DNA of 64,000 nt from Oscillospiraceae bacterium (lineage in GTDB: Bacteria; Bacillota; Clostridia; Oscillospirales; Oscillospiraceae). The position numbers and the translations under genes were made by a program. Under the pieces are notes generated by a model that had not been told where the DNA came from, did not search any database, and saw nothing but the letters and a program-made list of their open reading frames with translations. This document shows positions 14,606-58,375 of the stretch, piece after piece. Position 1 is the first letter of the stretch. Every line of letters begins with the position of its first letter. The stretch covers positions 29,068 to 93,067 of the forward strand of contig JAFQZI010000137.1 of NCBI GenBank assembly GCA_017406005.1, given 5' to 3'.

Positions 14606-14620
14606 TTTCCCATTGTGAAA
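14606..14620. promoter_or_regulatory. Operator of the TTTC-N7-GAAA regulon (dehydratase side)
   Basis: The 15-mer TTTCCCATTGTGAAA matches 12 of 15 positions of the window consensus TTTCTTATTATGAAA. It lies 4 bp from the leftward -35 box, and its centre is 31 bp from a second copy. Confidence 0.6.
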
Positions 14621-14636
14621 TAAATTGGGAAAAGCA

Positions 14637-14651
14637 TTTCATATTACGAAA
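14637..14651. promoter_or_regulatory. Operator of the TTTC-N7-GAAA regulon (SDR side)
   Basis: TTTCATATTACGAAA is a near-perfect palindrome; its reverse complement matches 13 of 15 consensus positions. It lies 5 bp upstream of the rightward TTGACA box at 14657, mirroring the other operator. Confidence 0.7.
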
Positions 14652-14656
14652 AATGA

Positions 14657-14684
14657 TTGACACTTTCTGCCTCGATGGTATTAT
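14657..14684 (+). promoter_or_regulatory. Predicted promoter for the SDR-lactonase-aldolase/kinase operon
   Basis: TTGACA (14657-14662), a 16-nt spacer and TATTAT (14679-14684), about 36 nt upstream of the SDR start. Confidence 0.7.
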
Positions 14685-14720
14685 TATTTTTAAGAAATCA
14701 TAGGATGAGAGGCACAGGAT

Positions 14721-15473
14721 ATGTTTGATCTTCATGGAAAAACAGCACTTGTTACCGGATCGAACCGAGGCATCGGGAGGTCAATCCTTCTCGCATTCGC
14801 GGAATACGGAGCAGATGTCATTCTGCATTGCCGTAAGCCAAATGATCGTGCAGACCAGGTGCTTGAACAGGCAAAATCTTATGGGGTTGCTTGTCAGGCT
14901 GTCTATACGGATCTGTCTGAATCTGACGGGCCGCAAAAGCTTTACGATGGAGTGAAAGCACTGGGTCTGCAGGTGGATATCCTGGTACTCGGGGCATCTG
15001 TCGAAATCCGCAATGACTGGACTGCAATTACGGACGAGGAATTTGATCTCCAGGTTAACACCAATCTCCGCGCACCGATGAAGCTGATGCAGCTGTTTAT
15101 TCCGGAGATGCAGAAAAGGCATTGGGGCAGGGTGATTACTATGGGCAGTGTCCAGCAGGTGAAGCCTATTCCACCGCTGATGGTTTATTCTGCACTGAAA
15201 GCGGCACAGTATAACATGGTGCTTTCGCTTGCTCCACAGATTGCACCGGATGGGGTTACCATCAACAATCTTGCTCCCGGGGCGATCCGGACAGATCGCA
15301 ATGCGGAGGCACTGTCCGACCCGGCTTATGAGGCGCATGTCCGGTCTTTGATTCCTGTCCGTTATATTGGGCAGCCTGATGATATTGCGGCGATAGCCGT
15401 CTATCTGGCGAGTGAAGAAAGCAAGTATATGACCGGGGAAAACATCATCATTGCCGGAGGAAAAGACCTTTGA
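14721..15473 (+). CDS. Short-chain dehydrogenase/reductase, probable sugar or aldonate dehydrogenase
   Basis: This classical SDR has 250 residues. It shows the cofactor loop TGSNRGIG (residues 12-19), the catalytic serine in MGSVQQ, the YSALK catalytic Tyr/Lys pair and the NLAPGAIRTDRN segment. It opens the rightward sugar-acid operon and overlaps the lactonase gene by a TTGA junction, so the two are translationally coupled. A dehydrogenase followed by a lactonase is the classic pair for oxidising a sugar to its lactone and then its acid. Substrate not determined. Confidence 0.88.
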   Translation: MFDLHGKTALVTGSNRGIGRSILLAFAEYGADVILHCRKPNDRADQVLEQAKSYGVACQAVYTDLSESDGPQKLYDGVKALGLQVDILVLGASVEIRNDWTAITDEEFDLQVNTNLRAPMKLMQLFIPEMQKRHWGRVITMGSVQQVKPIPPLMVYSALKAAQYNMVLSLAPQIAPDGVTINNLAPGAIRTDRNAEALSDPAYEAHVRSLIPVRYIGQPDDIAAIAVYLASEESKYMTGENIIIAGGKDL

Positions 15474-16459
15474 GGACCGTTTATATTGCTTCCCGCGATG
15501 AAAAAGGCGGAATTCTGCGGTGTGCCCTTTCCGAGGACGGGCAGCTAAGCCTGCTGGATACAACACCGGTTGACCGCCCGGCTTATCTCTGCAGAGACAA
15601 GAACAAACTCTATGTCCTTTTGAGAGAGCCTTTTCAGCTGATGAGCGGGCTCAGCACCTATCAGATCAACCCAGATGGCGCCTTATCTCTTACAGGAGAG
15701 CTGAAAAGCACCCACGGGCTTTATACCGCACATCTTTATGCCCGCGAAGGAAAAGTCTGGGTTGCGAATTATATAGACGGAACTGTGGCTTTGCTTCAGA
15801 TGGAAAGGGATAACACACCCGTTCAGGATAAAGTTATTGCTTTTACAGGCAGCGGACCGGATAAAAAAAGACAGCTGAGTTCCCATCCGCATTGCATTGT
15901 GCCAACGCCGGATGGAAAATACCTCTGCGTTAATGATCTCGGGACAGATCGGATCTATGTGATGAGCCCGGAGCTGGAGCTGATTTTTGTCTGCCAGCTT
16001 CCCTCCGGCTGCGGGCCGAGGCATCTTGTTTTTTCCCGTGACGGAACAGTTGCCTTCTCTTCCAATGAGATGGGATCTTCAGTTTCTGTTTTACGGTACC
16101 TCGACGGCACGTTAAAACATATTTATACAGTCTCCACGCTTCCGGCAGAGTATCAGGGAATCAGTACTGCAGCAGGAATCCTGCTCTCCGAGGGCGGTAA
16201 TCAGCTTTACGTATCCAACAGAGGGCATGACAGTGTATCTGTTTTTCGTGTTGCCGGCGAAGAGCTGACACTGGAGGGATTCATTCCCTGTTTCGGCATC
16301 TCTCCCAGAGAAATTGCCCTCGCAGGAGATTTCCTCCTTTGCGGGAATGAGCGCTCTGACAATATCACTGTTTTTTCCCTGAGAGATGGAATCCCCTCTG
16401 CTCCCGTTTGCGATTACCAAGTAAAAATGCCATGGTGTATCATTGCAAATCAGCAATAA
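15470..16459 (+). CDS. Beta-propeller lactonase (6-phosphogluconolactonase family), second copy
   Basis: This is a 329-residue cytoplasmic beta-propeller of the Lactonase family. Blade-type repeats include HPHCIVPTPDGKYLCVNDLG, RHLVFSRDGTVAFSSNE, GNQLYVSNRGHDSVSVF and FGISPREIALAGDFLLCGNE. The start is TTG 15470, overlapping the SDR stop (TTGA), with GGAGGAAAA about 9 nt upstream; no ATG is better placed. It most likely hydrolyses the lactone made by the coupled SDR. It is a diverged paralogue of the copy at 6960-8003, sharing the HPHQ/HPHC and SNRxHDS motifs. Confidence 0.87.
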   Translation: MRTVYIASRDEKGGILRCALSEDGQLSLLDTTPVDRPAYLCRDKNKLYVLLREPFQLMSGLSTYQINPDGALSLTGELKSTHGLYTAHLYAREGKVWVANYIDGTVALLQMERDNTPVQDKVIAFTGSGPDKKRQLSSHPHCIVPTPDGKYLCVNDLGTDRIYVMSPELELIFVCQLPSGCGPRHLVFSRDGTVAFSSNEMGSSVSVLRYLDGTLKHIYTVSTLPAEYQGISTAAGILLSEGGNQLYVSNRGHDSVSVFRVAGEELTLEGFIPCFGISPREIALAGDFLLCGNERSDNITVFSLRDGIPSAPVCDYQVKMPWCIIANQQ

Positions 16460-16504
16460 TATCCCTATCTTCTGCGTTGATTATTCATAAAACGGAGAAT
16501 TGAA

Positions 16505-17278
16505 ATGATCAGTGCTTTTCCGACAACAAAAGCATACTTTATTGCAGGATTGAGTCTCAGCTTTCTGATTTCTGCAGGCATGATCCATGATGGTAGAAGT
16601 TTGCCGGCAGCATTTCTTGGTTTCTTGTTTGGGGTTTCTATTTCCTGGCTTATCTCTTCTCTGATTGCCTTGACAAATCATAGAAAGCTTTTGAACATCC
16701 TTTACAGAGAAATGAAACCGAAAGACTTCATTGCAGTCTATTATCCTGTTGCAAAAAACGATAAATTAAGAAAAAACATTCATTTCAGCATGATGTGTTT
16801 TTTAAGTAATGCATATTCTGCTGCTGGAGAATATGATATTGCAATGGAAGTTTTGAATTCGATTCAGGTTTTAGACAGCAGGAAGCAACAACAAAGCAAA
16901 GCTATCCTGACAGGAAACCGATGTGATATTTATTGTGCGATGGAAAATATCGTTCTCGCGAAAAAAGAGTATTCTGATCTGAAAACAATGGTTAATGCCG
17001 GGGAAACGTCTCAGAAATCGATACTTGACCTTTTGAAAGTAAAAATAAACTTGCTAGAAGAAAATGTTTCAGAAGAGGACTGTGAGATTGTTCGTTCAAC
17101 CCTGAAAGGAAATCTCACCCCCCTTTTCCAGCTGCAACTTCGCTATCTGCTTGCGCAGCTCTATGAGCAACAAGGAGAATATGAATTTGCACAGACTTAC
17201 TATGAAGAAACTGCAAACGGAAACGAACAGCTTGCAATCGTGAGGAAAGCAAAGATACATTTGAACAAGGGAGTTTAA
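16505..17278 (+). CDS. Membrane-anchored TPR-like protein of unknown function
   Basis: The 257-residue protein begins with two hydrophobic segments (about residues 8-25 and 32-55). A helical C-terminal region follows with tetratricopeptide-like signals (LSNAYSAAGEYDIAMEVLNSI, LAQLYEQQGEYEFAQTYYEET). I do not recognise a named family. It lies 45 nt after the lactonase and 35 nt before the aldolase/kinase fusion, inside the catabolic operon. Such proteins often scaffold protein contacts. No catalytic motif is visible. Confidence 0.65.
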   Translation: MISAFPTTKAYFIAGLSLSFLISAGMIHDGRSLPAAFLGFLFGVSISWLISSLIALTNHRKLLNILYREMKPKDFIAVYYPVAKNDKLRKNIHFSMMCFLSNAYSAAGEYDIAMEVLNSIQVLDSRKQQQSKAILTGNRCDIYCAMENIVLAKKEYSDLKTMVNAGETSQKSILDLLKVKINLLEENVSEEDCEIVRSTLKGNLTPLFQLQLRYLLAQLYEQQGEYEFAQTYYEETANGNEQLAIVRKAKIHLNKGV

Positions 17279-17313
17279 TAAATCTTCACATTTTCAGAAA
17301 AGGAGAGCAGAAG

Positions 17314-19023
17314 ATGGATATTTTTGAAAAAATCACAGCAAGCGGAATTTTACCAGTCATCAAAGTGGAGAATATTGATTATGCTGTTCCTCTGGCAGAT
17401 GCTTTGCGAAACGGTGGTATCAATGCGATTGAAGTGACTGCCAGGAATGAAATTGCTTTCGATGCGATCAAAAAGATAAGGCAGACATTTCCAGATATGG
17501 TTATTGGGGCTGGCACGATTATCAACAAGGAATTGGTAGACAAAGCTGTAGACGCCGGAGCAGATTTTTGTGTAGCACCGGGTTTTCATCCTGAAGTCAC
17601 AGAATATAGCAAGGAAAAGAAGATGCCGTTTGTTCCGGGGTGCTCAACACCATCAGAAATTGAGAACGCTGTTGCATCGGGTTTTTCTGTTATAAAATTC
17701 TTCCCTGCGGAAGCAGCCGGCGGAGTCGCAGCGTTAAAGCTTATCAACGGACCATTCCCGAATGTGAAGTTTATTCCGACTGGCGGTCTAACCTACGATA
17801 ACATTGGCAATTATTTGAAGCTAAAGTGTGTAGCTGCATGTGGCGGCAGTTTTATGGCGAAATCAGATACGATTAAGAATGCTGATTGGAGCACAATTAC
17901 CAGACAATGTGAAAAGGCGCTAAGAATATCTCGACAGGCAAGAGGTCAGGAGAAACCTCGCTGCAATCAAAGCGAATATGAAGCAATTTCTGCTGCTACA
18001 GGGAAAACTGTGGTTGGGTTTGGAGATATGCTGGTATCTTTCTCTCCGGATGGTTACCGCCGGTTTATTCAGGCAGATCACATGAACGTGAATTATACCG
18101 GAGCAGAAGCAAATGTTTTAGCATCACTTAGCTGTTTCGGAATGAAAACGGAGTTCGTTACACGCATTCCGAATAATGCAATCAGCATCTGCGCAGTTTC
18201 TTTCCTGAAACGCTTCAATATAGGAACTGGTAAAATCGTATATGGCGGAGACAGGATAGGAGTTATTTATACAGAGCGGGGTGCATCACAGAGGCCTTCC
18301 AACGTTGTTTATGATCGAAAACATACTGCAATATGTGAAGCAAAGCCGGAAGACTTTAATTGGGACGATATATTCCAAGACGCTGGATGGTTCCATTTTA
18401 CCGGGATTGCGGCAGGCTTGAGTGACAGTATGTCAGAGTGCTGCCTTGCTGCATGCAAGGCCGCTAAGGCGAAAGGAGTCATTATATCGTGTGATCTGAA
18501 TTACCGAAAAAAGCTGTGGTCACAAGAAAAAGCAAGATCTGTTATGGAAGAATTAGTCAGTTATGCTGATGTAGTTATAGCAAATGAAGAGGACGCAGAC
18601 AAAGTTCTTGGAATATCTTCTCCTGATACCGATGTGGAAACAGGAAAGCTGAATGAAAAGGGATATATCAGCGTGGCAAAACAGATTTGCGCAGGATATG
18701 GAGTCAAACAGGTAGCCATTACTTTACGGAAAAGTCTCTCTGCATCAGATAATATGTGGAGCGCCATGCTCTACGATGGTCAGAATGCGTATTTTTCAAG
18801 AGAGTATAAAATTCATATCGTGAACAGAGTCGGAGGCGGAGATTCCTTTACAGCAGGGCTTATTTACGCACTGGCAAATCATTATCCGCCACAGAGAACA
18901 ATTGAATTTGCCGCTGCGGCTTCCTGCCTGAAGCACAGCATAGAGGAAGATTTCAATCTTGTTAGTTTAGAAGAGGTTGAAGCGCTTGTGGCAGGAAGCG
19001 GATCCGGACGGGTACAAAGATAG
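17314..19023 (+). CDS. Fused KDPG aldolase - 2-keto-3-deoxygluconate kinase
   Basis: This 569-residue protein joins two consecutive enzymes of the 2-keto-3-deoxygluconate (KDG) pathway. Residues 1-~212 are a KDPG/KHG aldolase with Glu40 (AIEVTAR) and the Schiff-base Lys128 (VIKFFPAEAAGG). After a polar linker, residues ~231-569 form a PfkB-type kinase with YTGAEANVLASL, YTERGASQRPSN and the catalytic GGGD at 507-510. The order aldolase-kinase is the reverse of the reaction order (kinase first). KDG would become KDPG, then pyruvate plus glyceraldehyde-3-phosphate. It can serve both the upstream dehydratase and the UxaC/UxuB/UxuA genes at 26.8-29.9 kb, which otherwise lack these last steps. Confidence 0.92.
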   Translation: MDIFEKITASGILPVIKVENIDYAVPLADALRNGGINAIEVTARNEIAFDAIKKIRQTFPDMVIGAGTIINKELVDKAVDAGADFCVAPGFHPEVTEYSKEKKMPFVPGCSTPSEIENAVASGFSVIKFFPAEAAGGVAALKLINGPFPNVKFIPTGGLTYDNIGNYLKLKCVAACGGSFMAKSDTIKNADWSTITRQCEKALRISRQARGQEKPRCNQSEYEAISAATGKTVVGFGDMLVSFSPDGYRRFIQADHMNVNYTGAEANVLASLSCFGMKTEFVTRIPNNAISICAVSFLKRFNIGTGKIVYGGDRIGVIYTERGASQRPSNVVYDRKHTAICEAKPEDFNWDDIFQDAGWFHFTGIAAGLSDSMSECCLAACKAAKAKGVIISCDLNYRKKLWSQEKARSVMEELVSYADVVIANEEDADKVLGISSPDTDVETGKLNEKGYISVAKQICAGYGVKQVAITLRKSLSASDNMWSAMLYDGQNAYFSREYKIHIVNRVGGGDSFTAGLIYALANHYPPQRTIEFAAAASCLKHSIEEDFNLVSLEEVEALVAGSGSGRVQR

Positions 19024-19066
19024 AAACAAACAAAAACTGAAATAAATTATTTCGAAAGGAGAAAAA

Positions 19067-19813
19067 ATGAGCGATCAGCTTCAAGACACCTATGAAATTA
19101 GACCTTTGTATGAAGCTTGTCCAAAAGAATGGAGAGACAGGATACCGGAGTTAGCAGAACGGTATAAAAAACTTTATACTGCATTGGTCTATGATATTAT
19201 GGCAGAGCAGTACAATCTCCCGGGGCGCTCGCTAAAACCGGGTATAGGACCTCTCGAAAGAGGAGAACGGAACGGAAAGCTTGCGGGCCCGGCATTTACA
19301 TCTCGCAGATGTACGACACCGAATACGGATCCGGCGATCCATAATATCCGCCTTGGGCAAATGAAGAGCATGTGCCAGGGGTGCGTTTTTGTTTCAGACG
19401 TCCAGGGGAACAGAAATTGCGGCCAGTTCGGAGAGATAACCGCTACAGCAATGAGAGCAGCTGGTTGTGTTGGGGCTGTCATTGATGGATCTACCAGAGA
19501 TTCAGACTATCTCATTGCAATGGGATTTCCGACTTTTGTTAGATGGTGCAGTCCTGTGGAAGGGCTGACGCGATCCATAATCGTTGACTATATGATTCCC
19601 ATTTATGTAGATGGGGTGGACGGAATGCTTCGTATTGACCCAGGTGACTGGATGTTTGGAGACGGAGATGGAGTTGTCGTTGTCCCAAAAGAGATTGTTG
19701 TTCCTGTGTTGGAAAAAGCAGAGAAGAATTTCAACGATGAAAAATTAAGCCGTCGCGCTATGGCGGAAGGAATGAATCCGTTCGAAGTATATAATAAGTA
19801 TGGGAGATTTTAA
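19067..19813 (+). CDS. RraA-family aldolase/decarboxylase-like protein, second copy
   Basis: The 248-residue protein is of the RraA/HMG-CHA aldolase family. It retains the full active-site signature VIDGSTRD, where the Arg-Asp pair binds substrate and metal in characterised aldolases. An unusual pair of cysteines flanks the centre (KSMCQGCVFV). Family members split 4-hydroxy-2-oxo acids or decarboxylate oxaloacetate, and some have only a regulatory role (RNase E inhibition in E. coli). Position between the aldolase/kinase fusion and TRAP transporter 1 supports a catabolic role. Substrate unknown. Confidence 0.85.
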   Translation: MSDQLQDTYEIRPLYEACPKEWRDRIPELAERYKKLYTALVYDIMAEQYNLPGRSLKPGIGPLERGERNGKLAGPAFTSRRCTTPNTDPAIHNIRLGQMKSMCQGCVFVSDVQGNRNCGQFGEITATAMRAAGCVGAVIDGSTRDSDYLIAMGFPTFVRWCSPVEGLTRSIIVDYMIPIYVDGVDGMLRIDPGDWMFGDGDGVVVVPKEIVVPVLEKAEKNFNDEKLSRRAMAEGMNPFEVYNKYGRF

Positions 19814-37461: not shown

Positions 37462-37520
37462 AGTCTTTACTCCTTTTTTGAAATATTTATTTGTCACGCT
37501 TTTGCGTGAAAAATACAGGT

Positions 37521-38348
37521 TTATTGTTTGATGCCTGATACAGCAATACTTGCGACGATATGCTTCTGGAGGATAAGATACAGGATCGTAAGAGGAATAG
37601 CACTCATTACTGATACTGCCATTCTCGGACCGTAATAGAAGCTCTCCTGCTGGGCATTAAACATTGCGACGCCGACAGATATCATCTGCTTTGAATAATC
37701 TTTGATTACGACGAGAGGCCAGAGATAAGCATTCCAGTTGGAGATGATCTGCAGAATTGCCAGTGTAGACATGATCGGCTTTGACAGAGGGACAATAACG
37801 CTCCAGAATACTCTCCATTCACTTCCTCCGTCGATATAGACGGATTCTGCCAGAGAATCGGGAATGGAACTGATATAAGAGCGGGCGAAAAAGGTTCCGT
37901 AGACATAGGCAAACTGTCCCAGAATCAGCGGCCACCAGGTGTTGAGCAGTTTCCAGTTTCGATACTGCAGGTAAAGAGGAACCAGCCTTGATTCAAAAGG
38001 AACCATCATTACTGCCAGCATGAAAATGAACCAGAATTTCTTGCCGACGAATTTCAGCTTTGCGAAAGCAAAACCGCACATCATGGAGAACAAAACTGCC
38101 AGTGATGTGTTGATTGCGACGATGATGACAGTATTTTTAAAATACTGCATGAGATCGATCATCTTAAAAGACGCAGTGTAATTAAACATGGTCGGTTTAT
38201 GCGGCCAAAGGGAGAAAGGAGGAAGAGAAGTGGTTGCGGCTCTATCGAAGGACATGACAATCGACCAGAGCAACGGGGTAATGACAATCAGAAAAATAAT
38301 CAGTAATACAAGCGCGGTAATCGCTTTTTTTATTTTTGCTCTCTTCAT
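37521..38348 (-). CDS. CUT1-type ABC transporter permease (MalG-like)
   Basis: This 275-residue inner-membrane permease has six predicted helices. The EAA loop that contacts the ATPase is clear (IPDSLAESVYIDGGSEWRVFW followed by VIVPLSKPIM), and the C-terminus matches MalG relatives. It lies 3 nt downstream of the partner permease, and its stop is 59 nt before the binding-protein start. Confidence 0.93.
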   Translation of the reverse strand: MKRAKIKKAITALVLLIIFLIVITPLLWSIVMSFDRAATTSLPPFSLWPHKPTMFNYTASFKMIDLMQYFKNTVIIVAINTSLAVLFSMMCGFAFAKLKFVGKKFWFIFMLAVMMVPFESRLVPLYLQYRNWKLLNTWWPLILGQFAYVYGTFFARSYISSIPDSLAESVYIDGGSEWRVFWSVIVPLSKPIMSTLAILQIISNWNAYLWPLVVIKDYSKQMISVGVAMFNAQQESFYYGPRMAVSVMSAIPLTILYLILQKHIVASIAVSGIKQ

Positions 38349-38351
38349 GTT

Positions 38352-39269
38352 CTACACCTCATCGCTCAGGAAACCGGTCATTTTTACATTGATCATGGTA
38401 AATGCAAAAACGAGAACGAAAAGGATCATTGCTCCGGCGGAGGAAATTCCGTAGTTGGGAGTTTCAAAACTATACTGGAAAATATACATCAGTATTGTCT
38501 GCAGGCTTCCTCCGGCACCTCCAGATGTGTTGCTGCCGCTGATGATATAAATATCGGTGAATCGGGCCAGACCGTTGATCATACCGGTAACGAACAGAAG
38601 TGAAAAACACGCTTTCATGTTAGGGATCGTAATGTGAAGCATTTTCTGAAAAGAGGATGCTCCATCAAGTGCTGCGGCTTCATAGAGATCTGTAGGAATA
38701 GCCTGAAGGCTTGCAAGGTTTATCAGCATGGAATAGCCTGCGTTCATCCAAACCCACAAGATGGTTGCCCCGAACTTTGCGTATTTCGGATTTGACAGCC
38801 ATCCGATTGTAACCGGATGCCCAATGAGCTTGCCTAAAAAACTGTTCAGCAATCCGCCGTTGCCCATCAGCACGACCTGGAAAATCAGATAGACGCTGAC
38901 ACCTGTAATGATGTTGGGAAGATAGAATCCGACCCGGAAGAACTCTTGCGTCCTTCCTCTGCCAAGGCTGTTGATCAAAACGGCAAGGATAAACCCGACG
39001 GGTATCGTCAGCAGGCCCAGAACCGCCAGAATGATCGTATTGGATATTGCTCTCCAAAATGCCTTTTGAGAAAACAGCATTTTATAATTAGCGAGACCGA
39101 CAAACTCTTCTCCGTAACCGACCAAGCCGACCTTATATGTGCTGTATTTGATGGTGGTTAACATCGGGATATATACCAGAACAAACAGCGTAATAAGGCT
39201 GATGATAATAAACGAATACGCAACAAGCTGGTTTCGTACAATTCGTTTTGTTATCTTTGGCCGCTTCAT
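38352..39269 (-). CDS. CUT1-type ABC transporter permease (MalF-like)
   Basis: This 305-residue permease has six membrane segments and the EAA loop ALQAIPTDLYEAAALDGASS followed by FQKMLHITIPNMK. It pairs with the MalG-like protein encoded next. Upstream by 22 nt is the GH20 gene, so import and hydrolysis are in one transcript. Confidence 0.93.
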   Translation of the reverse strand: MKRPKITKRIVRNQLVAYSFIIISLITLFVLVYIPMLTTIKYSTYKVGLVGYGEEFVGLANYKMLFSQKAFWRAISNTIILAVLGLLTIPVGFILAVLINSLGRGRTQEFFRVGFYLPNIITGVSVYLIFQVVLMGNGGLLNSFLGKLIGHPVTIGWLSNPKYAKFGATILWVWMNAGYSMLINLASLQAIPTDLYEAAALDGASSFQKMLHITIPNMKACFSLLFVTGMINGLARFTDIYIISGSNTSGGAGGSLQTILMYIFQYSFETPNYGISSAGAMILFVLVFAFTMINVKMTGFLSDEV

Positions 39270-39291
39270 CTTTTCACCTCCGCTTCAAATA

Positions 39292-40698
39292 TTATGCCAG
39301 TGGCTGCGCCTGCTTAAAAATCTGACTGTCCGTCCATCCGGCTTCTGCATAGTTACCATGCACAAAGTATACTTTACGCAATAAAGTTGCTGTTTCTGTT
39401 TGTATTTCGTTTTTTGCAGTTCCCGCCCAGGGAGAATGATATGCACCGCAAAGAACTGCTGCCGTTATGACCTGTGTCATCTTTTCGGATAATGTATGCC
39501 ACGTTGTTACCAGAATACCCAGTAAATTATTGTCACGAATTGTGTCTGCAAAAGCTTTACAATTCTCCGAACGATACCAGGGAGTGCCGAGAACATCAAA
39601 ACCCTGATCCCTTAGATAAAGGCTGGTTTTTACCGGAGGCTGAAAAACATCATAGTGCCAGTCTGCAATGATGGTATCTTTAGGAATGCATTCTGCCATT
39701 TTTCTTGCATTTTCCGGTGTATCACACCCGCAGAAGTATGGCTTTTCAACACCGCATGCTTCCGGATTCAGCAGCATGTCTCCCCAGATGATCGGTCTCT
39801 TGCCTTCCGATTTCACTTCCTCCAGAAGGTTATGCAGATATTGCCGCATTTTAGCCTGGTTTTCATCCCCGGATTCATACGAATATACTTCATCACAGCC
39901 CAGATGCATATACTCGGAATGAGGGAAGAGTTCATACAATTCTCCCCGAATATTCTTCAGAAGAGCATGTGTCTCGGAGCTCTCTATATTCCAGGACCAA
40001 CCGTCTGCAGCGAACAGGGTTGCCAGTCGGGGATTCTGATCCAGCACAACATGTTTTCCACCGCTGACCCTGCATCCCGAAGCATGACCGAGATGATTGA
40101 ACATAGGAATTGCATGCATACCCATGTTTTCAATTTCCCGGATCAAAACTTTCAGCTGGTCTTTTGAGAATGCATTTTCCCATGCGAGTTCTTTCAGGCA
40201 ATCATATTTCAGCATTCCCCAGAATTCAAGGATAACGTGTGTATACTGCATAACGCCTGCCAGCCGGACAAACTTGCGGATAAAAGAAGTGGAGGTTTCC
40301 GGGAAGACACAAAAATGAATCATTCGCGTTCCGATCGTATAATGGCTGGACAGGCTGCATACCGCAATACGGAAACGCTCTTGCCCTTCTGTCAGAGAAA
40401 CCGCCTCGATCCGCAGCATCAGCGTCATTAATCCCCGAACAAGGCTCTCATAGTTTTCAGCAAAAATTCCGATTCCCGATTCTGTAACTTCAATTGCGTA
40501 TTCCTGTCCTTTTTGCAGAACGGGATATTCTGCTTTCCCTGTTTTGAATCCGAAACAGTCCGGTTCGCTCTCTGAAACTGTCAAAAAGCCTGCGTGAAAG
40601 CAAAACCCGTTCCATAGGTCTTGGATGGTTTTGTTGTTTAATCCCGGGCAACCGGATGCGAGGGTGTCCTTTTCAAAGTAAAAATAACCCTTTTCCAT
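39292..40698 (-). CDS. Cytoplasmic GH20-family beta-N-acetylhexosaminidase-like enzyme
   Basis: This 468-residue glycoside hydrolase has the GH20 catalytic pair Asp269-Glu270 in HLGCDEVYS, preceded by IPMFNHLGHASG and followed by RPIIWGDMLLNPE. The N-terminal ~110 residues match the small GH20b-type domain. GH20 enzymes remove terminal GlcNAc or GalNAc by substrate-assisted catalysis. There is no signal peptide, so it acts on imported oligosaccharides. It stands between Gfo/Idh-type genes and the ABC importer. Which hexosamine linkage it cleaves cannot be deduced. Confidence 0.87.
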   Translation of the reverse strand: MEKGYFYFEKDTLASGCPGLNNKTIQDLWNGFCFHAGFLTVSESEPDCFGFKTGKAEYPVLQKGQEYAIEVTESGIGIFAENYESLVRGLMTLMLRIEAVSLTEGQERFRIAVCSLSSHYTIGTRMIHFCVFPETSTSFIRKFVRLAGVMQYTHVILEFWGMLKYDCLKELAWENAFSKDQLKVLIREIENMGMHAIPMFNHLGHASGCRVSGGKHVVLDQNPRLATLFAADGWSWNIESSETHALLKNIRGELYELFPHSEYMHLGCDEVYSYESGDENQAKMRQYLHNLLEEVKSEGKRPIIWGDMLLNPEACGVEKPYFCGCDTPENARKMAECIPKDTIIADWHYDVFQPPVKTSLYLRDQGFDVLGTPWYRSENCKAFADTIRDNNLLGILVTTWHTLSEKMTQVITAAVLCGAYHSPWAGTAKNEIQTETATLLRKVYFVHGNYAEAGWTDSQIFKQAQPLA

Positions 40699-40739
40699 AG
40701 AGAACCTTTCTATCCGAACGGTACAGACAGATGCACGAT

Positions 40740-41813
40740 TTACATATAAACCGGCTTGCCTGATGCAATGGAGTCATAGCAGCGAACCATCGCCTCAACA
40801 GTTCTCTTATGCCACTCCAGATTGATTTTGGGCTGTTTGTTGTTTATGATGCAGTCATAAAACTCATCCATCATGCCGATCCACTCATCAAAGTAGGTAT
40901 ACTGAATCGTATATCTGTTGTTTGGCCCGCCATTGAAATAGACATTGGGACCGAAACAGTCAGCCTGAAGGACCCCTTTGGTTCCGACGATAGAGTAGTT
41001 CACTTCCATACGTTTTGGAAATACTTCCCAACCCGGACCGGGGCGGGATATATGCTCTTCATGCCGGCACCAGGATGGGTCAAGAAGGAACTTGCAGCCG
41101 TTTTTCATCCTTCCTGTCACATAAAGCACATCTTCTTCCGGGATATCCCGAATATTATCTGTGACATCGGCGAATACATAGTCAAAATCACTCCCAGTGA
41201 TCCAGCGAAGCGTATCAAAAATATGGGGATGATCGCTCAAGGCACCGCCTCTGAAACGGGGATCTCCTTCCCGCAGAGGAATCTTTTTTCCGTAGGATAT
41301 TTCTGGATCGCCCTGCCAGGGAAAAGCCCAGACCGGAGAAAGGGTAATGTTTGTAGCATTAAAGGAAATTACATCTCCGATGGCACCGGATTGGACCAGA
41401 TCCTGAACGCGTCGGGTAGTGGGATTGTACGTCATCTCCAGCTCGACCTGACAGAGAACGCCAGCGTCTTTTACCATTTTGATCATGCGGTCGTATTCTT
41501 CGAGATCAAAGGTAGGAATCTTCATGGACAGCATGTGTTTTCCGTACTTGCAGCACAGCTCCATATCACCATAGTGCCGGAAGTTCTCAGATGCGATGAT
41601 AACGCCGTCTATTTCCGGATGTTCAATCAGCATCTGCTCTGTGGAGCGATAAATGGGCACATCATATCCGTAAAGCTTAAAGTCTTCTTCCACGGCTTCT
41701 GTAGCGCAGGACACGGCAACCCAATTCAATTTAGCGTTGTCATGGAGCGTCTGATAATACTTACGCACGTGTGCATGTGTAAGAGACGCAATTGCAACAT
41801 TAATCTGTTTCAT
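40740..41813 (-). CDS. Gfo/Idh/MocA-family oxidoreductase with degenerate dinucleotide motif
   Basis: The 357-residue protein has the Gfo/Idh/MocA layout. The C-terminal signature GGALSDHPHIFDTLRWITG is clear and the usual EKP motif appears as MKIP. The N-terminal Rossmann loop normally reads GxGxxG but here is ASLTHAHV, so the cofactor site is unusual. Members oxidise sugars, inositols or act as NAD-dependent glycosidases (GH109). It abuts the upstream gene with no gap (TGA then ATG), implying that the two proteins work together. Confidence 0.83.
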   Translation of the reverse strand: MKQINVAIASLTHAHVRKYYQTLHDNAKLNWVAVSCATEAVEEDFKLYGYDVPIYRSTEQMLIEHPEIDGVIIASENFRHYGDMELCCKYGKHMLSMKIPTFDLEEYDRMIKMVKDAGVLCQVELEMTYNPTTRRVQDLVQSGAIGDVISFNATNITLSPVWAFPWQGDPEISYGKKIPLREGDPRFRGGALSDHPHIFDTLRWITGSDFDYVFADVTDNIRDIPEEDVLYVTGRMKNGCKFLLDPSWCRHEEHISRPGPGWEVFPKRMEVNYSIVGTKGVLQADCFGPNVYFNGGPNNRYTIQYTYFDEWIGMMDEFYDCIINNKQPKINLEWHKRTVEAMVRCYDSIASGKPVYM

Positions 41814-42593
41814 TCAGCACCTGACCTCCACATACTCTAAAACTTTTGTTGCTTCTTCTGCAGCTCTGTAAACTGACACAAGATGTTTTCCCTGTTCCTG
41901 CAAAGCGGGTATTGTATCGGGGTTGGCTAAAACACCTAGTATGAACCGGATGCAGTCTGCCTGTGTGTTATCAAGCCCATACAATTCGTTATCGATTTCG
42001 TTATAGCGGTCCACTTCCCGCCCCTTTATCACATAAATCGGATATTGCTGCATCTGAGTATCGACGACAACATCAGATGCTATCCCTGTACGGGCAATGA
42101 CTTCGTGCAACAGAACAGGCTCGCTGCCTTCCGGAGAGAAACCGAGTTCCATGCTGATTTTCAGCTTTGCCGCAGAAACAATGCAGTTCGTATAAACATC
42201 AGAGCTGAAATCTGCAAAGATCTTATCGATTTTTTCTCCCGTAATGATTTCAACCAGGTCACTTTCGTATGCCAGAATATTCATCAGGGAACTGTTAAAC
42301 TCATCTTTCGGGACAATATGATGAATCCGCATGCCTCGTACGTCTTCAATCATTTTTGTTTTCAGGATGTTCTTCAGCTCTATATACTTGCGTTTGTTGC
42401 GCCAATGCAGCAAAGGAACTGCAGTTTTGCCGGCAGAAGCTTCATATTTTGCCAGATCAAAAAAGAACGAATAGCTCCCTTTATCACACTGAAGACAGAT
42501 TTCCCCCTCTTTCAATTCTACCTGTATATCGCTTGCCGCGGAGTACTTGTCTGCCAGCTCTTTTAAGTAGGGGACGAACAGTTTATCATCCAT
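41814..42593 (-). CDS. Uncharacterised protein resembling a Gfo/Idh/MocA C-terminal domain without a Rossmann half
   Basis: I do not firmly recognise this 259-residue protein. From about residue 110 it has the sequence rhythm of the Gfo/Idh substrate domain (YESDLVEIITGEKIDKIFAD, then SMELGFSPEGSEP, DVVVDTQMQQYPIYVIKG and the end SVYRAAEEATKVLEYVEV). The first ~100 residues lack a nucleotide-binding glycine motif. It directly precedes, with zero spacing, a complete Gfo/Idh protein, so it may be an inactive partner subunit or a sensor of the same substrate. Function unknown. Confidence 0.55.
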   Translation of the reverse strand: MDDKLFVPYLKELADKYSAASDIQVELKEGEICLQCDKGSYSFFFDLAKYEASAGKTAVPLLHWRNKRKYIELKNILKTKMIEDVRGMRIHHIVPKDEFNSSLMNILAYESDLVEIITGEKIDKIFADFSSDVYTNCIVSAAKLKISMELGFSPEGSEPVLLHEVIARTGIASDVVVDTQMQQYPIYVIKGREVDRYNEIDNELYGLDNTQADCIRFILGVLANPDTIPALQEQGKHLVSVYRAAEEATKVLEYVEVRC

Positions 42594-42640
42594 ACTAAAA
42601 ATCCTCCTGATTTATAACTATAACCAAAATCCGAATCAGT

Positions 42641-43672
42641 TTATTTCTTCAGAACCCGTTTATAATTCCTGCCGATATGATCCCAAAGAGCCAGGGCATC
42701 TTTTGCTGCGACCACTGTCCCGTAACCTCCGCGATAGGTCCAGGTAGCGAGCCGGTCAACGCCCATCTCTTCATACAGATCCACAACATGATCAATCTGG
42801 CTGAAATCGGCAGGGCGGTTATTATAACCCATAAGCCAGCGTTCTGATTCTTTTCCGTATTTTTTTGCCATTCTGACACAGCGTTCTGTCACATCCCGGA
42901 AGAAACTCTCCGGAAGCGTCCAGTTGATGATCGTGGTTGAAAATACATCAAAATACGGGCAGGCTGCGACCATATCCCAATTGTCGTATCCTCTGAGCTC
43001 TGTCACATAGTAGGTCTGTAGTGTTGCATGGACGCAGCATGTGATCTCCAGCTTCGGGTTGTACTCCTTTAACGCTTTGGACACCATTGTCAGGGTTTCA
43101 AGGGCTTCTCTCCAGCGGAATTGCTTCACGTCGTCATTCATGAATTTCGGCATTTCATAGCCGTAATACGCTTCAAATTTTCTCATGCACTCCGGGCAGC
43201 GGCAAGCCCAGTCATCCCCGGCACCACCGGTGATAGAGGCATAAGATTTTGGATAGGCATAATGAGGCTCATCCCAGAAGAAGCCGTCAACTTCGGTTTC
43301 TCTTGCAAGCTTCAGACAACGAGCCATGAAATAGTCGCGAAAAGAATTTGTGTTAAAACACGCTGCCGGGAGGACCTCCCCGGTATAGGCAGAGACCTGT
43401 CGATGGTGTATGTTGTTCTGGAGAAACAGAGAGACGTTTTCTCCGCCGAAATACTTCCCGATTCCCCAGGTGTCCGCAATGACGCGAAGCCCTAATTCAT
43501 GGGCTTTTTTTACGATGGCATTGATGTTGGGAAACCAGAAGTCCATATCGAATTCTGTCAGGGCAAGGATCACCGTATCGCAGCCATGCTCGATCATTTC
43601 TTTAAAGTCAGCTTCCGCGTGTTCGACATAGTTCATGCCGTAATAGCTGACTGCGGTGTGTTTAATCGCCAT
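42641..43672 (-). CDS. Putative TIM-barrel glycoside hydrolase-like protein
   Basis: This 343-residue soluble protein has barrel-like strands (DTVILALTEFDMDFWFPN, GLRVIADTWGIGKYFG). A likely acidic active site lies in DGFFWDEPHYAY, and the cysteine-containing segment WACRCPECMRKFEAYYG resembles the Cys cluster seen in GH42 and related hydrolases. Tryptophan/tyrosine-rich loops would fit a sugar cleft. I cannot assign a family. It starts at ATG 43672 with GGAGAAG and follows the SIS gene by 14 nt in the glycan operon. Probably a cytoplasmic glycosidase. Confidence 0.6.
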   Translation of the reverse strand: MAIKHTAVSYYGMNYVEHAEADFKEMIEHGCDTVILALTEFDMDFWFPNINAIVKKAHELGLRVIADTWGIGKYFGGENVSLFLQNNIHHRQVSAYTGEVLPAACFNTNSFRDYFMARCLKLARETEVDGFFWDEPHYAYPKSYASITGGAGDDWACRCPECMRKFEAYYGYEMPKFMNDDVKQFRWREALETLTMVSKALKEYNPKLEITCCVHATLQTYYVTELRGYDNWDMVAACPYFDVFSTTIINWTLPESFFRDVTERCVRMAKKYGKESERWLMGYNNRPADFSQIDHVVDLYEEMGVDRLATWTYRGGYGTVVAAKDALALWDHIGRNYKRVLKK

Positions 43673-43686
43673 TTCTTCTCCTTAAA

Positions 43687-44442
43687 TCAGAGCATTTTCA
43701 CTCTGGGGCTGTATTTTTTCAGATTCTTTGCATTGAATTCGTCTCCGCCCGGGACGTTAGCGCTTCTCCAGAATGGCGGTTCAATGCCCATTTCGAGACA
43801 GGCTTTTGCACATTCAATTTCAAGCCGATGCACGATATAAAAATCCGTCATGTTGGATATTGGACCGATTGGGGTATCAAATCCTTCCAGATTAATCACA
43901 GTGTCTCCGAACGGATTATAGTCGTCGATGCATACATCCGCAAAATCAAAGAGGTTTTTACGGGAAGAATGCCTCAATTCATAATCCTTCGGAACCTTTT
44001 CCTGCCAGTCGGAAGAAGAAACGGCTATTATTTTTACACCCCGCTCTTTTGCTTCCATTGCAGCATCGATGGTTGCCGCATTTGTTCCGATGTTGTGATA
44101 AATGATTAGGACATCACCTTCCTGCAGGTTATAGTAGTCCATGATTGCCCGCCCATAGTTTTCACAACGCTCCAGCGCAAGATACTTTTGAGCCTGATTG
44201 AATACGGATAGTCCGGTTTCCATACATGGATTGATGTTGCACAATCCCCCTGCCCGGAAAAACATCTCTCCGACAGGGAGTGTTGTGTGGCCACCGCCAC
44301 CATATACATTGATCAAACGGTCTTCTTTAACAGCTTCTGCCATTAACTGACCTGCAGCTTTCATGTTTTCGTACTGTTCTTCTTCAATTCTGGTGATTAA
44401 ATCTACAACTTGTCCGTAATATCCGTTTGAGTTGTCTCTCAT
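43687..44442 (-). CDS. SIS-domain sugar isomerase-like protein, first gene of the glycan operon
   Basis: The 251-residue protein has one SIS domain, with NVYGGGGHTTLPVGEMFFRAGGL near residue 45 and IIYHNIGTNAATIDAAMEAKERG as the phosphosugar-type loop. It is a paralogue of the SIS protein at 46457 (shared FxRAGGL, DVCIDxxxPxGD and SGNIPGG/SANVPGG segments). Members bind phosphorylated amino sugars as isomerases, deaminases or regulators. It starts at ATG 44442 with GGGAGGA and leads the leftward operon through the ABC importer genes. Confidence 0.82.
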   Translation of the reverse strand: MRDNSNGYYGQVVDLITRIEEEQYENMKAAGQLMAEAVKEDRLINVYGGGGHTTLPVGEMFFRAGGLCNINPCMETGLSVFNQAQKYLALERCENYGRAIMDYYNLQEGDVLIIYHNIGTNAATIDAAMEAKERGVKIIAVSSSDWQEKVPKDYELRHSSRKNLFDFADVCIDDYNPFGDTVINLEGFDTPIGPISNMTDFYIVHRLEIECAKACLEMGIEPPFWRSANVPGGDEFNAKNLKKYSPRVKML

Positions 44443-44482: not shown

Positions 44483-44515
44483 ATAATAGTTTGACAGTTT
44501 TCCGGTCGAAGTCAA
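44483..44515 (-). promoter_or_regulatory. Predicted promoter of the leftward glycan operon
   Basis: On the minus strand TTGACT (44515-44510) is followed by AACTAT at 18 nt or TATTAT at 21 nt. The poor -10/spacer combination suggests dependence on an activator. Confidence 0.45.
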
Positions 44516-44519: not shown

Positions 44520-44534
44520 TTTCTTATTATGAAA
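44520..44534. promoter_or_regulatory. Operator of the glycan operon
   Basis: TTTCTTATTATGAAA equals the consensus I derived from the eight window copies. It lies 4 bp upstream of the leftward TTGACT box. Confidence 0.72.
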
Positions 44535-44701: not shown

Positions 44702-44716
44702 TTTCGTATTATGAAA
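44702..44716. promoter_or_regulatory. Operator upstream of iclR copy 2
   Basis: TTTCGTATTATGAAA, 14 of 15 consensus positions, lies 60 nt upstream of the iclR start. The TATTAT within it could be the -10 of the iclR promoter (TTTACC 19 nt upstream), so bound protein would repress. Confidence 0.65.
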
Positions 44717-44775: not shown

Positions 44776-45525
44776 ATGGTTAATTCAGTAAAAAAGGCAA
44801 CAGATATTTTGCAAATCCTCTCGAATAACCCAGGAACCTGTCTCACGTTGGGTTCTATCTCACAATTATCCGGCATCAACGAATCTACTTGCGCACATAT
44901 TGTGAATTCTCTTTGCGAAACTTTTTTTATTGAAAGAGTTTCCAGAAAAGAAGGTTACCGGCTTGGCCCCTGGGCCTATATGCTGTCCAGGAAAGAGCGG
45001 TACCAGGAAGCGCTGATCAAGATTTCGGAACCGATCCTGACCTGGCTGCATGAACAGCTAAATGTGACCGTGTTTCTCGATGTTATCTGCAACGGAAGAA
45101 AGTTTGTGCTTTTCTATATTGACGATGAACACAGACTTCTGAACAGCGGAGACAGCATTATTCAGGGAAAAATGGAAACGACAGCTTCCGGCTTGCTTCA
45201 TATGGCCTATATGGATAAAGAAGATCTTCGCAAGGTTCTCTCCAGAGAGATAAATTGTTCCGATACGGCACAGACCGTTCTGCCCTACTCGGATCTTGAC
45301 TTGACCCTGTTAAAAATCAGGAGCACAGGCTATATCCATGTAGAAAACAACATTCTCCATGAACAGTCTTTTGCATTCAAAGTCTCGGACGGATTTCGGA
45401 ATATCGCTGCCATCGGAGTCGTTTATTCCAATGCGATTGAAAATCCGGAATTTCACAAAAAAGTGATGAAACTCGGAAAGCAGGCCAGTGCCGAGATCAG
45501 CAGAAGATTGCCATTTGCAAGATAA
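44776..45525 (+). CDS. IclR-family regulator, copy 2
   Basis: The 249-residue IclR-type regulator has an N-terminal helix-turn-helix (TLGSISQLSGINESTCAHIV) and an IclR effector domain. It is clearly paralogous to the regulator at 30068, including an identical 14-residue stretch ERVSRKEGYRLGPW. The start is ATG 44776 with AGGGGAAA upstream; the open frame extends to 44614, but that part covers the operator and promoter region. It is divergent from the SIS/GH20/ABC operon. Along with copy 1 it is the best candidate for binding the eight TTTC-N7-GAAA sites. Confidence 0.93.
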   Translation: MVNSVKKATDILQILSNNPGTCLTLGSISQLSGINESTCAHIVNSLCETFFIERVSRKEGYRLGPWAYMLSRKERYQEALIKISEPILTWLHEQLNVTVFLDVICNGRKFVLFYIDDEHRLLNSGDSIIQGKMETTASGLLHMAYMDKEDLRKVLSREINCSDTAQTVLPYSDLDLTLLKIRSTGYIHVENNILHEQSFAFKVSDGFRNIAAIGVVYSNAIENPEFHKKVMKLGKQASAEISRRLPFAR

Positions 45526-45617: not shown

Positions 45618-46460
45618 CTATTCCAGCATATATCGATACGGTAAAGAGGGCATTACAAATGCCTGTTCCACACTCTTTGCCGCTGCTTTCTGTGCGAACC
45701 GGGCTGCTTCCAGCAAATCTTTCCCTTCTCCGATTGCAACAGCAAGGGCGGCGGTAAAGCAATCTCCCGCACCTGTTGTGTCTTTAGCAGTCACCTTCAC
45801 AGCAGGAAGATATGTTTCGACACCCCTGTCTTTTACCAGAGCACCTTTACTCCCGAGCGTAATTACTTCCCGGTCTGTTTCTGTACCGATCATTTTTGAT
45901 TCGCTCTCATTAGGCGTGATGCAGAAGAAATGGTTTATAAACTCTTTGCTGCAGAGATGCGCCGGAGCGGGATTCAGGATCAGTTTTACCCCATGTTTTT
46001 CCGCGAGGACAATAGCTGCTTCATTGGCGGCAGAAGGAACCTCAAAATTCAAAAGAACGATGTCACTTTTCTCAAATACAGGCTCCAGCGAGGATACAAA
46101 ATCTGCAGAGAGTAGATCTGCCGCACCGCGAAAAACAGTGACCTGGTTTTCTCCGTTTTCATCCGTAAGGATAGAAGCAAAAGCTGTTGCGTCTTTCACG
46201 ATTTGAATATGCGGGGCAATTCCTTCTTCAAGAAGAAACTCACTGCATGCTTTCCCATCTTCATCCTCTCCACAAGCGGCGATAAAGTGTACTTCCGCTC
46301 CCAGCCTTGCGGCAGCAACCGCCTGATTGTATCCTTTTCCTCCCGGTTCAATATGGATTGCAGAGGCATGCAGGGTTTCGCCGGGATGATGGAAATGATT
46401 CACCTGCAGGAAAACAGATCTCCCACACAAACCGAGTATAGTAATGACAGGGCGTTTCAT
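45618..46460 (-). CDS. PfkB-family sugar kinase (ribokinase-like)
   Basis: This 280-residue kinase has the ribokinase signatures HIEPGGKGYNQAVAAARLG near residue 36 and TTGAGDCFTAALAVAIGEG near the C-terminus, with the catalytic Asp in GAGD. Inner motifs ILNPAPAH and TPNESE match ribokinase. It overlaps the upstream SIS gene by ATGA, so the kinase and SIS protein are made together. The substrate is likely a sugar or amino sugar released by the neighbouring glycosidases, not proven to be ribose. Confidence 0.88.
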   Translation of the reverse strand: MKRPVITILGLCGRSVFLQVNHFHHPGETLHASAIHIEPGGKGYNQAVAAARLGAEVHFIAACGEDEDGKACSEFLLEEGIAPHIQIVKDATAFASILTDENGENQVTVFRGAADLLSADFVSSLEPVFEKSDIVLLNFEVPSAANEAAIVLAEKHGVKLILNPAPAHLCSKEFINHFFCITPNESESKMIGTETDREVITLGSKGALVKDRGVETYLPAVKVTAKDTTGAGDCFTAALAVAIGEGKDLLEAARFAQKAAAKSVEQAFVMPSLPYRYMLE

Positions 46461-47188
46461 AGACAATGTATCCTTTTCTGGTATCGTTCAATGAGGGATT
46501 GATTATACTCTGCGCCTCCGGGAATATTCCCGCTCAGATAGACTGGGACGTTAAGCCCTTCTTTTAAAGCGAATTCCGTTCCTTCCGCCAGGATGCTGTT
46601 TATGATATAGGTGGAGGCTACAGTAGAAACAGGTGTCATTTTTACCGGAAGGCCTTCCGGCTGAAGGCAGGCATCTCCGTGAGGCACAGCATTGTCAATA
46701 CACACATCGCACACATCCTGCAGATGTTTGCCAACAGCATTATGAGGAGCCTGAGAAAGATAATGATCCGATGCAATGCCGACGACAGGAATACCCCGTT
46801 CCCGAACTGCAGAGGCAAATTCTACAGGAACCGCATTGATGCCGGAAGAGGAAACACAAATCAACATATCTTTCCCGGTGAGATTCTCAGCCTGAGAAAT
46901 GTTCCTGTAATATCCGTCCTTCTTCTCAAGCCTGCTGCTTTCGGAAGCACTTTGATGCAGCATGAGCGGCTCATTAAAAACAGGTGCAACACAAGCAAGG
47001 CCACCGGCCCGGTAAAAGGTTTCCTCTGCAAGCATGTGGGAGTGCCCGCATCCGAAGACGTAAATAAGCCCATCGTTTTGTATGACGTTTTTTACGAATC
47101 CTGCAGCAAGAAGGATTTTGTCCCGCTGTGTGCTGCGAATTCGTTCAATAGTTGCTGTCAGAACAGCGGCATAATCATCCAGTAGCAT
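46457..47188 (-). CDS. SIS-domain protein of the UPF0309 type
   Basis: The 243-residue protein has the UPF0309 features IRSTQRDKILLAA, YVFGCGHSHMLAEETFYRAGGL and ICVSSSGINAVPVEFASAVRERG. SIS domains bind phosphosugars, and this subfamily has no firmly established reaction. It is a diverged copy of the SIS protein at 43687. It is coupled to a PfkB kinase and has its own promoter with a regulon operator 4 bp from the -35. The pair may phosphorylate and isomerise an amino sugar. Confidence 0.85.
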   Translation of the reverse strand: MLLDDYAAVLTATIERIRSTQRDKILLAAGFVKNVIQNDGLIYVFGCGHSHMLAEETFYRAGGLACVAPVFNEPLMLHQSASESSRLEKKDGYYRNISQAENLTGKDMLICVSSSGINAVPVEFASAVRERGIPVVGIASDHYLSQAPHNAVGKHLQDVCDVCIDNAVPHGDACLQPEGLPVKMTPVSTVASTYIINSILAEGTEFALKEGLNVPVYLSGNIPGGAEYNQSLIERYQKRIHCL

Positions 47189-47242
47189 AGTGTGCCCTTT
47201 CCGTCAGTGAGTTTTCGACTATATCTTTAGCGTTCTATAAAT

Positions 47243-47271
47243 ATAATGTGTGCCTTGCTGAAAAAAGTCAA
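47243..47271 (-). promoter_or_regulatory. Predicted promoter of the SIS-PfkB operon
   Basis: On the minus strand TTGACT (47271-47266), a 17-nt spacer and CATTAT (47248-47243). An alternative TTATAT lies at 19 nt. Confidence 0.5.
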
Positions 47272-47275
47272 TCAA

Positions 47276-47290
47276 TTTCTTGTCAGGAAA
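47276..47290. promoter_or_regulatory. Operator of the SIS-PfkB operon
   Basis: TTTCTTGTCAGGAAA matches 12 of 15 consensus positions and lies 4 bp upstream of the leftward TTGACT box. Confidence 0.55.
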
Positions 47291-47331
47291 AGCATTTTTC
47301 AGGATAGAAAATCAGATTACTGTTTTTTGCT

Positions 47332-47346
47332 TTTCGGAATATGAAA
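47332..47346. promoter_or_regulatory. Operator of the lactate operon
   Basis: TTTCGGAATATGAAA matches 12 of 15 consensus positions and ends exactly 4 bp before TTGACA at 47351. Confidence 0.6.
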
Positions 47347-47350
47347 ACTA

Positions 47351-47379
47351 TTGACAGAACGCAATATTCCGGAAATAAT
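47351..47379 (+). promoter_or_regulatory. Predicted promoter for glcD-etfB-etfA-larA
   Basis: TTGACA (47351-47356), a 17-nt spacer and AATAAT (47374-47379), 45 nt upstream of the glcD start. Confidence 0.65.
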
Positions 47380-58374: not shown

Positions 58375-58375
58375 T

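Follow-up and report, generated by a model that had tools for sequence, protein, structure and literature searches.

IclR and KdgR of Escherichia coli, regulators of the IclR family, are repressors that are released by a metabolite. Family members with operators of group 1 as a rule regulate their own gene together with one or two operons next to it, and the position of their operators has been analyzed relative to the translation start, according to the sections consulted of the family survey (Suvorova and Gelfand 2021, PMC8222616). The locus described here lies in a stretch of 64,000 nucleotides from Oscillospiraceae bacterium (GenBank assembly GCA_017406005.1, contig JAFQZI010000137.1, positions 29,068 to 93,067 of the forward strand; hereafter the window) and encodes two IclR-type regulators, iclR1 and iclR2. 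Its layout points to a real, conserved and local IclR-type regulon of about eight transcription units, i.e. to a known kind of control with an unusually rigid placement of the operator, a 15-bp palindrome TTTC-N7-GAAA (termed a strict site), relative to the -35 box (the distance from the end of the site to this box is termed the gap). Eight such copies had been reported by an earlier inspection of the letters (the sequence-only reading), and all eight were recovered by a pattern search of the window:

14606..14620, minus strand: operator of the dehydratase operon, TTTCACAATGGGAAA, 4 bp before the -35 box TTGACA (14596..14601; -10 AATAAT 14574-14579, spacer 16); counterpart at L067 9402, minus strand
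14637..14651, plus strand: operator of the SDR operon, TTTCATATTACGAAA, 5 bp before the -35 box TTGACA (14657..14662; -10 TATTAT 14679-14684, spacer 16); counterpart at L067 9419, plus strand, with gap 4
30834..30848, minus strand: operator of iclR1, TTTCAAATTATGAAA, overlapping the last 2 bp of the -10 box (-35 TTGACG 30870-30875, -10 TATATT 30847-30852, spacer 17)
31009..31023, plus strand: operator of the second TRAP operon, TTTCATGATAAGAAA, 4 bp before the -35 box TTGACT (31028..31033; -10 CATTAT 31051-31056, spacer 17); counterparts at L028 9801 and L029 9797, both minus strand
44520..44534, minus strand: operator of the SIS/glycan/ABC operon (glycan operon), TTTCATAATAAGAAA, 4 bp before the -35 box TTGACT (44510..44515; best -10 AACTAT 44486-44491, 3/6, spacer 18); counterpart at L028 3520, minus strand
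44702..44716, plus strand: operator of iclR2, TTTCGTATTATGAAA, between candidate promoters and the gene start; counterpart at L028 3692 only partly alike
47276..47290, minus strand: operator of the SIS-PfkB operon, TTTCCTGACAAGAAA, 4 bp before TTGACT (47266-47271; -10 CATTAT 47243-47248, spacer 17)
47332..47346, plus strand: operator of the lactate operon, TTTCGGAATATGAAA, 4 bp before TTGACA (47351-47356; -10 AATAAT 47374-47379, spacer 17)

Six of these sites end 4-5 bp before TTGACA or TTGACT, as had been claimed, with gap 4 in five (14606-, 31009+, 44520-, 47276-, 47332+) and gap 5 in one (14637+). The window contains 14 strict sites in total, nine of them in the 5,634 non-coding bases (9% of the window, as defined by our own gene list, from which two short open reading frames (ORFs) between 52.9 and 54.4 kb were omitted); the ninth non-coding site, at 19050, is a purine-rich run directly before a gene start. 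When the non-coding blocks were shuffled 1,000 times, strict sites numbered 0.35 on average and three at most, against nine observed, and the combination of a strict site, 4-5 bp and TTGAC, observed six times, had a mean of 0.002 and a maximum of one. A search for TTTCTTATTATGAAA with up to three mismatches yielded 17 rows at 12 places in the window (3.76 rows expected; maximum of 100 shuffles, 11); the four extra places (19911, 20874, 34761 and 61667) are not strict TTTC-N7-GAAA sites. Throughout the assembly (3,519,115 bases), TTTC-N7-GAAA-N(0-30)-TTGAC was found 19 times, eight times in the window and 11 times outside. All six cases with gap 4-5 fall inside the window, and the gaps of the 11 others are 2, 11, 12, 12, 15, 16, 21, 21, 21, 26 and 27; exact copies of TTTCNTANTATGAAA occur at three places in the assembly, all in the window.

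If the sites were fortuitous palindromes in AT-rich promoter DNA, a relaxed form of the motif should not stand out from its background, and it does not: up to two mismatches gave 146 matches assembly-wide (67+79), and the reversed control gave 141 (69+72). Ten of 15 selected places of this relaxed motif outside the window were examined; seven lie in ORFs of at least 184 aa and three do not, and TTGAC at 4-5 bp was found at none of the ten. Since the loose motif is not enriched, the signal is carried by the strict motif together with its spacing. An origin by chance is hardly credible for these, for the observed site count was reached in none of the 1,000 shuffles, and the explanation is contradicted as well by the spacing combination in the shuffles, by the assembly-wide spacing count, by the ranking of the sites by a weight matrix, and by the conservation of the layout in other genomes.

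The matrix was derived from eight sites outside the window, and all eight window sites rank within the top nine of the window; the coding match 13002 is also among these nine, and site 47276 is tied to one decimal with another coding match, 37371. Because the eight source sites were picked with fixed arms, the matrix favors the 14 strict sites by construction and adds only a ranking among these.

Relatives of the regulators were located by a peptide-pattern scan (two patterns) of genome contigs and by a search among 391 genomes of the class. Clear IclR relatives are encoded in an Oscillospiraceae metagenome-assembled genome (MAG) RGIG2509 from goat jejunum (stretch L028; 82% identity) and in the Clostridiales MAG SUG1290 (L029; 66%); a third scan match (L030) reached only 27%, and its single strict palindrome has no nearby TTGAC in the context viewed. 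Two further relatives, 36% identical, were found among the 391 class genomes (G092 and G401), and in both the palindrome adjoins the iclR relative. Promoter-type sites of the relatives were picked upstream of TTGA[CT] at gaps of 2-7 bp, the search covering this promoter shape and other strict sites being listed; in the four other IclR-bearing genomes, all eight sites obtained have gap 4. These are the TRAP and glycan sites of L028, the dehydratase and SDR pair of L067 (the same genome as L028), the TRAP and uxuA-like operon sites of L029/L068, and, in both L065 and L066, one site at a divergent operon; the TRAP promoter of L029 has TTGATT in place of TTGAC. Five stretches (L028, L065-L068) contain 11 strict sites, namely the eight with gap 4, a pair at the iclR genes of L028, and a coding one within the uxuA-like ORF of L065. 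When the four whole genomes were searched at gaps 0-30, an additional gap-4 match (L069, G429) and two gap-5 matches (L059, G429; L064, G401; ORFs of 360 and 324 aa) were found inside ORFs. The gap-4 matches L070 (G052) and L069 were left out of the promoter set as lying within ORFs, and the gap-5 matches of L059 and L064 are not in the set either. The proposal that a single operator, held at a nearly fixed distance from the -35 box, defines a local regulon is thereby well supported by four other genomes, and by the matrix built without window sites.

Taken together, the six window promoters and the eight of the relatives (window, L028, L065-L068) provide 14 promoter-type sites, with gap 4 in 13 and gap 5 in one. 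Their -35 boxes match the consensus at 6/6 positions in eight, 5/6 in five and 4/6 in one, and their best -10 boxes at 5/6 in eight, 4/6 in five and 3/6 in one (glycan); the promoters are imperfect rather than weak. In the window, the best -10 boxes score 5/6 (three promoters), 4/6 (two) and 3/6 (glycan), and the spacers are 16-18 bp, so that the description of several of these promoters as having weak -10 boxes or odd spacing holds only in part. With a spacer of 17 bp and the usual start distance, the operator core is predicted to span about -54 to -40, with its center near -47. Sites of class II activators, e.g. CRP, are centered near -41.5 and overlap the -35 element. The suggestion of a class II-type activator is therefore retained as to the near-fixed distance and modified as to position, as in all 14 cases the core stops 4-5 bp before the -35 box is reached.

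Within the palindrome, the core RYWWWRY is satisfied at 81 of 98 positions in the 14 sites, and position 11 agrees in only seven of 14, i.e. is nearly random; conservation is higher in the promoter-distal half (TTTCAT) than in the proximal one. The arm spacing of CodY or cre boxes differs from that of this palindrome. Duplicated promoters were rejected as the cause of the fixed spacing: the window promoters are not mutual copies, and the flanks of the six are barely more alike than shuffled ones (pairwise identity downstream of the -35 box 32%, shuffled 29%). TTGAC as part of a longer operator was likewise rejected, because the iclR1 and iclR2 sites have no TTGAC at that position. Sites 14606 and 14637 are 31 bp apart (about three turns), and a weaker palindrome, TTTCAGGATAGAAAA, lies at 47297-47311 (13.2 bits), its center 21 bp from that of site 47276; a center-to-center distance of 21 bp is a tandem spacing reported for IclR proteins in the sections consulted of PMC8222616.

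The two regulators are encoded as follows:

30068..30805, minus strand: iclR1, IclR-family regulator with HTH_IclR and IclR_C domains
44776..45525, plus strand: iclR2, IclR-family regulator, 51% identical to iclR1

IclR1 scores 31.7 bits for HTH_IclR and 29.2 bits for IclR_C (Pfam gathering cut-offs 22 and 24), and IclR2 scores 22.1 and 25.2 bits, above these cut-offs only narrowly. Each reaches 35.1 bits against the KdgR equivalog cut-off of 275, and neither is a KdgR equivalog. Their recognition helices are nearly the same, and S37, T38, C39 and H41 of this helix are invariant in seven proteins. That the two IclR proteins bind the palindrome is strongly suggested, as the motif is of the published IclR group-1 type, the recognition helices are near-identical and the site accompanies IclR relatives. 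The present sites fit the subgroup iii pattern WTTYCRYW3RYGRAAW, with the qualification that the arms were fixed by the search pattern and that binding itself is predicted.

The iclR genes' own sites had been read as overlapping their promoters, as for autorepression. For iclR1 the operator lies on the -10 box, a repressor position, and is kept in three genomes: L028 and L029 have TTGACT-17-TATATTTCA at the same place, the L029 copy differing by one arm base. This arrangement supports autorepression of iclR1. For iclR2 the reading did not carry over as it stood, as the site lies downstream of the candidate promoters, 20 bp after TATATT and 5 bp after TAAAAT, and the promoter is poorly conserved and ill defined; repression of iclR2 through this site is probable.

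We consider it probable, though far from assured, that the region between about 11.5 and 52 kb forms a self-contained regulon for sugar-acid use, in which dimers of IclR1 and IclR2 activate the catabolic operons and repress iclR1 and probably iclR2. The two paralogous proteins encoded in the cluster would bind the 15-bp group-1 palindrome TTTC-N7-GAAA as dimers. At the catabolic operons, a dimer would be placed just upstream of the -35 box, its core 4-5 bp away, and on binding of a pathway metabolite (likeliest a hexuronate or a 2-keto-3-deoxy sugar acid) would help RNA polymerase to bind, which would amount to activation. At iclR1 the same palindrome, covering the end of the -10 box, would confer repression, and at iclR2 it would do so from its position between the candidate promoters and the gene. 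We infer binding from knowledge of the family and activation from geometry alone; a uronate or 2-keto-3-deoxygluconate (KDG)-type inducer is the natural guess from the gene content.

The IclR proteins might instead be classical repressors at all sites, a dimer by the -35 box blocking sigma region 4 or trapping the polymerase until a metabolite releases it; we regard this as the less probable account, and a serious one. The near-consensus -35 boxes of 13 of the 14 promoters agree with it, as do the repressor position of the iclR1 site and an IclR footprint that would reach past the 15-bp core towards the -35 box. A repressor could act from any position over a promoter, but not one of the six catabolic operators is found in the spacer, over the -10 box or farther downstream, and 13 of the 14 promoter-type sites share one gap (a figure to be read with caution, as the sites of the relatives were preselected at gaps 2-7 upstream of TTGA[CT]). 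Activation appears the better reading at the catabolic sites, the position of which fits an activator in contact with the polymerase, a little farther upstream than class II sites classically lie.

Several observations weigh against activation by an IclR pair at a dedicated operator. With -35 boxes of 5/6 or 6/6 and -10 boxes of 4/6 or 5/6, each in 13 of the 14 promoters, these promoters are near consensus and therefore need not depend on an activator. At L065 11694-11708 and L066 2941-2955, a single operator lies 4 bp from the TTGACA of a divergent glycosidase-type operon and 2 bp from the iclR TTGAAC or TTGAAT, which would suit an activator or a repressor alike. KdgR of C. bescii, also of the IclR family, has been inferred to act as a repressor in the sections consulted of PMC8579813. 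Furthermore, the paralogues differ at one contact position: at position 36, aligned with Arg47 of TtgV, five of the seven proteins, IclR1 among them, have Lys, and the other two, IclR2 and its counterpart in L028, have Glu (codon 36 is at 30698-30700 in iclR1 and at 44881-44883 in iclR2). The two proteins may thus prefer different flanks, and because of this difference two signals acting on one operator are as possible as one signal.

The layout is also concentrated in, rather than exclusive to, genomes with these regulators. A scan of the 391 class genomes for TTTCAYRNTRNGAAA-N(0-30)-TTGAC gave 28 matches in 25 genomes, with gap 4 six times, gap 5 four times and every other gap at most three times; six of the ten matches with gap 4-5 are in the own genome, G092 and G401. 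Among the 22 matches in genomes without these IclR relatives, three have gap 5 and one has gap 4; two of these four fall within ORFs (G052, G182), and the remaining pair are intergenic TTTC-N7-GAAA sites 5 bp before a promoter-like TTGACA (G310, L075 1463-1477; G065, L077 1541-1555). A search with the HTH_IclR model found no gene near these two sites, the nearest being 266 kb away on the G065 contig and none being present on the G310 contig. As only two of the 22 matches outside the IclR-bearing genomes are of this kind, our confidence in the activation reading was left unchanged.

These two sites without an adjacent IclR-type gene would also agree with binding of the palindrome by another regulator of the cluster, e.g. 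the AraC-type protein at 25529-26770, the iclR genes being mere members of the regulon; an ORF similar by eye is found in L028 (14078-15391). AraC-type sites are usually direct repeats, which weighs against such a binder. The motif is moreover the published IclR group-1 palindrome, as given in the sections consulted of PMC8222616, and it adjoins the iclR relatives of G401 and G092; the explanation is improbable.

The transcription units concerned, and neighboring genes, are:

11541..14491, minus strand: dehydratase operon (MR/MLE-type sugar-acid dehydratase, galactonate-dehydratase-like; small protein; RraA-like protein)
14721..19813, plus strand: SDR operon (SDR dehydrogenase, lactonase, KDPG aldolase/sugar kinase fusion, RraA-like protein), then TRAP 1 from 19982
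25529-26770: AraC-type protein, in the cluster
26780..29941, minus strand: genes downstream of iclR1 (uxaC 28604-29941; D-mannonate oxidoreductase-like SDR 27735-28586; uxuA-like mannonate dehydratase 26780 to about 27741)
31155..35266, plus strand: second TRAP transporter operon (DctP 31155-32150; other genes named by likeness and order only)
36103..44442, minus strand: glycan operon (SIS protein 43687-44442, two proteins without Pfam match, GFO/IDH/MocA oxidoreductase, GH20-like protein, ABC-importer-like genes by eye)
45618..47188, minus strand: SIS-PfkB operon (SIS-domain protein 46457-47188, PfkB-type kinase 45618-46466)
47424..51931, plus strand: lactate operon (GlcD-like FAD oxidase, EtfB-like protein by eye, EtfA, nickel-dependent lactate racemase LarA)

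The KDPG aldolase/sugar kinase fusion scores above its NCBIfam cut-off and LarA above its equivalog cut-off; the dehydratase, UxaC and most other enzymes score below their equivalog cut-offs, and their substrates are not fixed by these scores. The mechanical ORF of the uxuA-like gene (26780-27856) begins too early; the start in the relatives is the methionine of MILTDYY, near 27741.

The operons are arranged in a modular fashion. The lactate genes directly follow the dehydratase operon in L067, and form a separate unit 33 kb away, with its own operator (47332), in the window. The TRAP, SIS-PfkB and glycan groups each have their own operator in the window; SIS and PfkB genes follow the TRAP genes in L028, and in L029 the TRAP, SIS, PfkB and glycan genes are co-directional downstream of a single strict site, a gap of about 275 bp occurring once among them. 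The operator is thus retained through operon rearrangement. As operator and spacing persist when operons split or fuse, we tentatively propose that the IclR pair uses a shared operator in two ways that depend on nothing but its position (activating where it lies 4 bp before the -35 box of the catabolic promoters, repressing at the pair's own genes), the operons evolving as portable operator-promoter modules that integrate two signals; this proposal is somewhat more doubtful than probable.

A regulon of this kind, 40 kb in size, is rare. No close relative of iclR1 was found in 24 genomes of the same genus, two of which gave matches at 26-28%, and at E 1e-40 no further relatives beyond the own or center genome were found in samples drawn from the G092 family (six genomes), the G401 family (16), the own family (200) and the phylum (398), each count including the own or center genome. 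A foreign contig or binning error was rejected: a HisD-like protein (window 58337-59662, by eye) is 72% identical to one in a same-genus genome, with matches in six of 12 same-genus genomes, and that end of the contig fits the genus for this reason. The regulon itself may still have been acquired, given that none of the 24 genomes has a close iclR1 relative.

The regulon (about eight transcription units), as read from sequence, is directly testable in its membership and mode; its named relatives belong to the Oscillospiraceae and Clostridiales (MAGs). Should the rigid spacing reflect activation, a positional code for IclR regulators of this type (activation 4 bp before the -35 box, repression on the -10 box) would make the sign of regulation readable from sequence. 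The genes for lactate oxidation and racemization are tied to sugar-acid breakdown, which would be sensible if 6-deoxy sugar acids or similar compounds are split to pyruvate and lactate.

Class II activators such as CRP (-41.5) are likewise located next to the -35 element at a fixed spacing, whereas here the core is 4-5 bp upstream and the center near -47. No IclR regulator with a fixed 4-bp distance to the -35 box was found in the literature surveyed, which included sections of PMC8579813, PMC4340878, PMC13273656 and PMC8222616 and left most subscription papers outside its coverage. KdgR, an IclR-family regulator responsive to KDG and concerned with pectin and uronate use, has uronate and KDG/KDPG genes in common with the present regulon; its motif, RWWGAAACGNCGTTTCAKKA (Table 1 of PMC8222616), has the GAAAC/GTTTC half-sites the opposite way round. 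PobR and PcaU of Acinetobacter are IclR-family activators of catabolic genes, like the role proposed here, and differ in serving aromatic-acid pathways and in having three-box operators, as described in the sections consulted of PMC8222616. The closest likeness is to the IclR group-1 operators of subgroup iii, WTTYCRYW3RYGRAAW, in the same survey, with which the present system shares the type of palindrome, the protein family and the predicted autoregulation, and from which it differs in its extent, with eight sites for about eight transcription units, and in a near-rigid distance to the -35 box.

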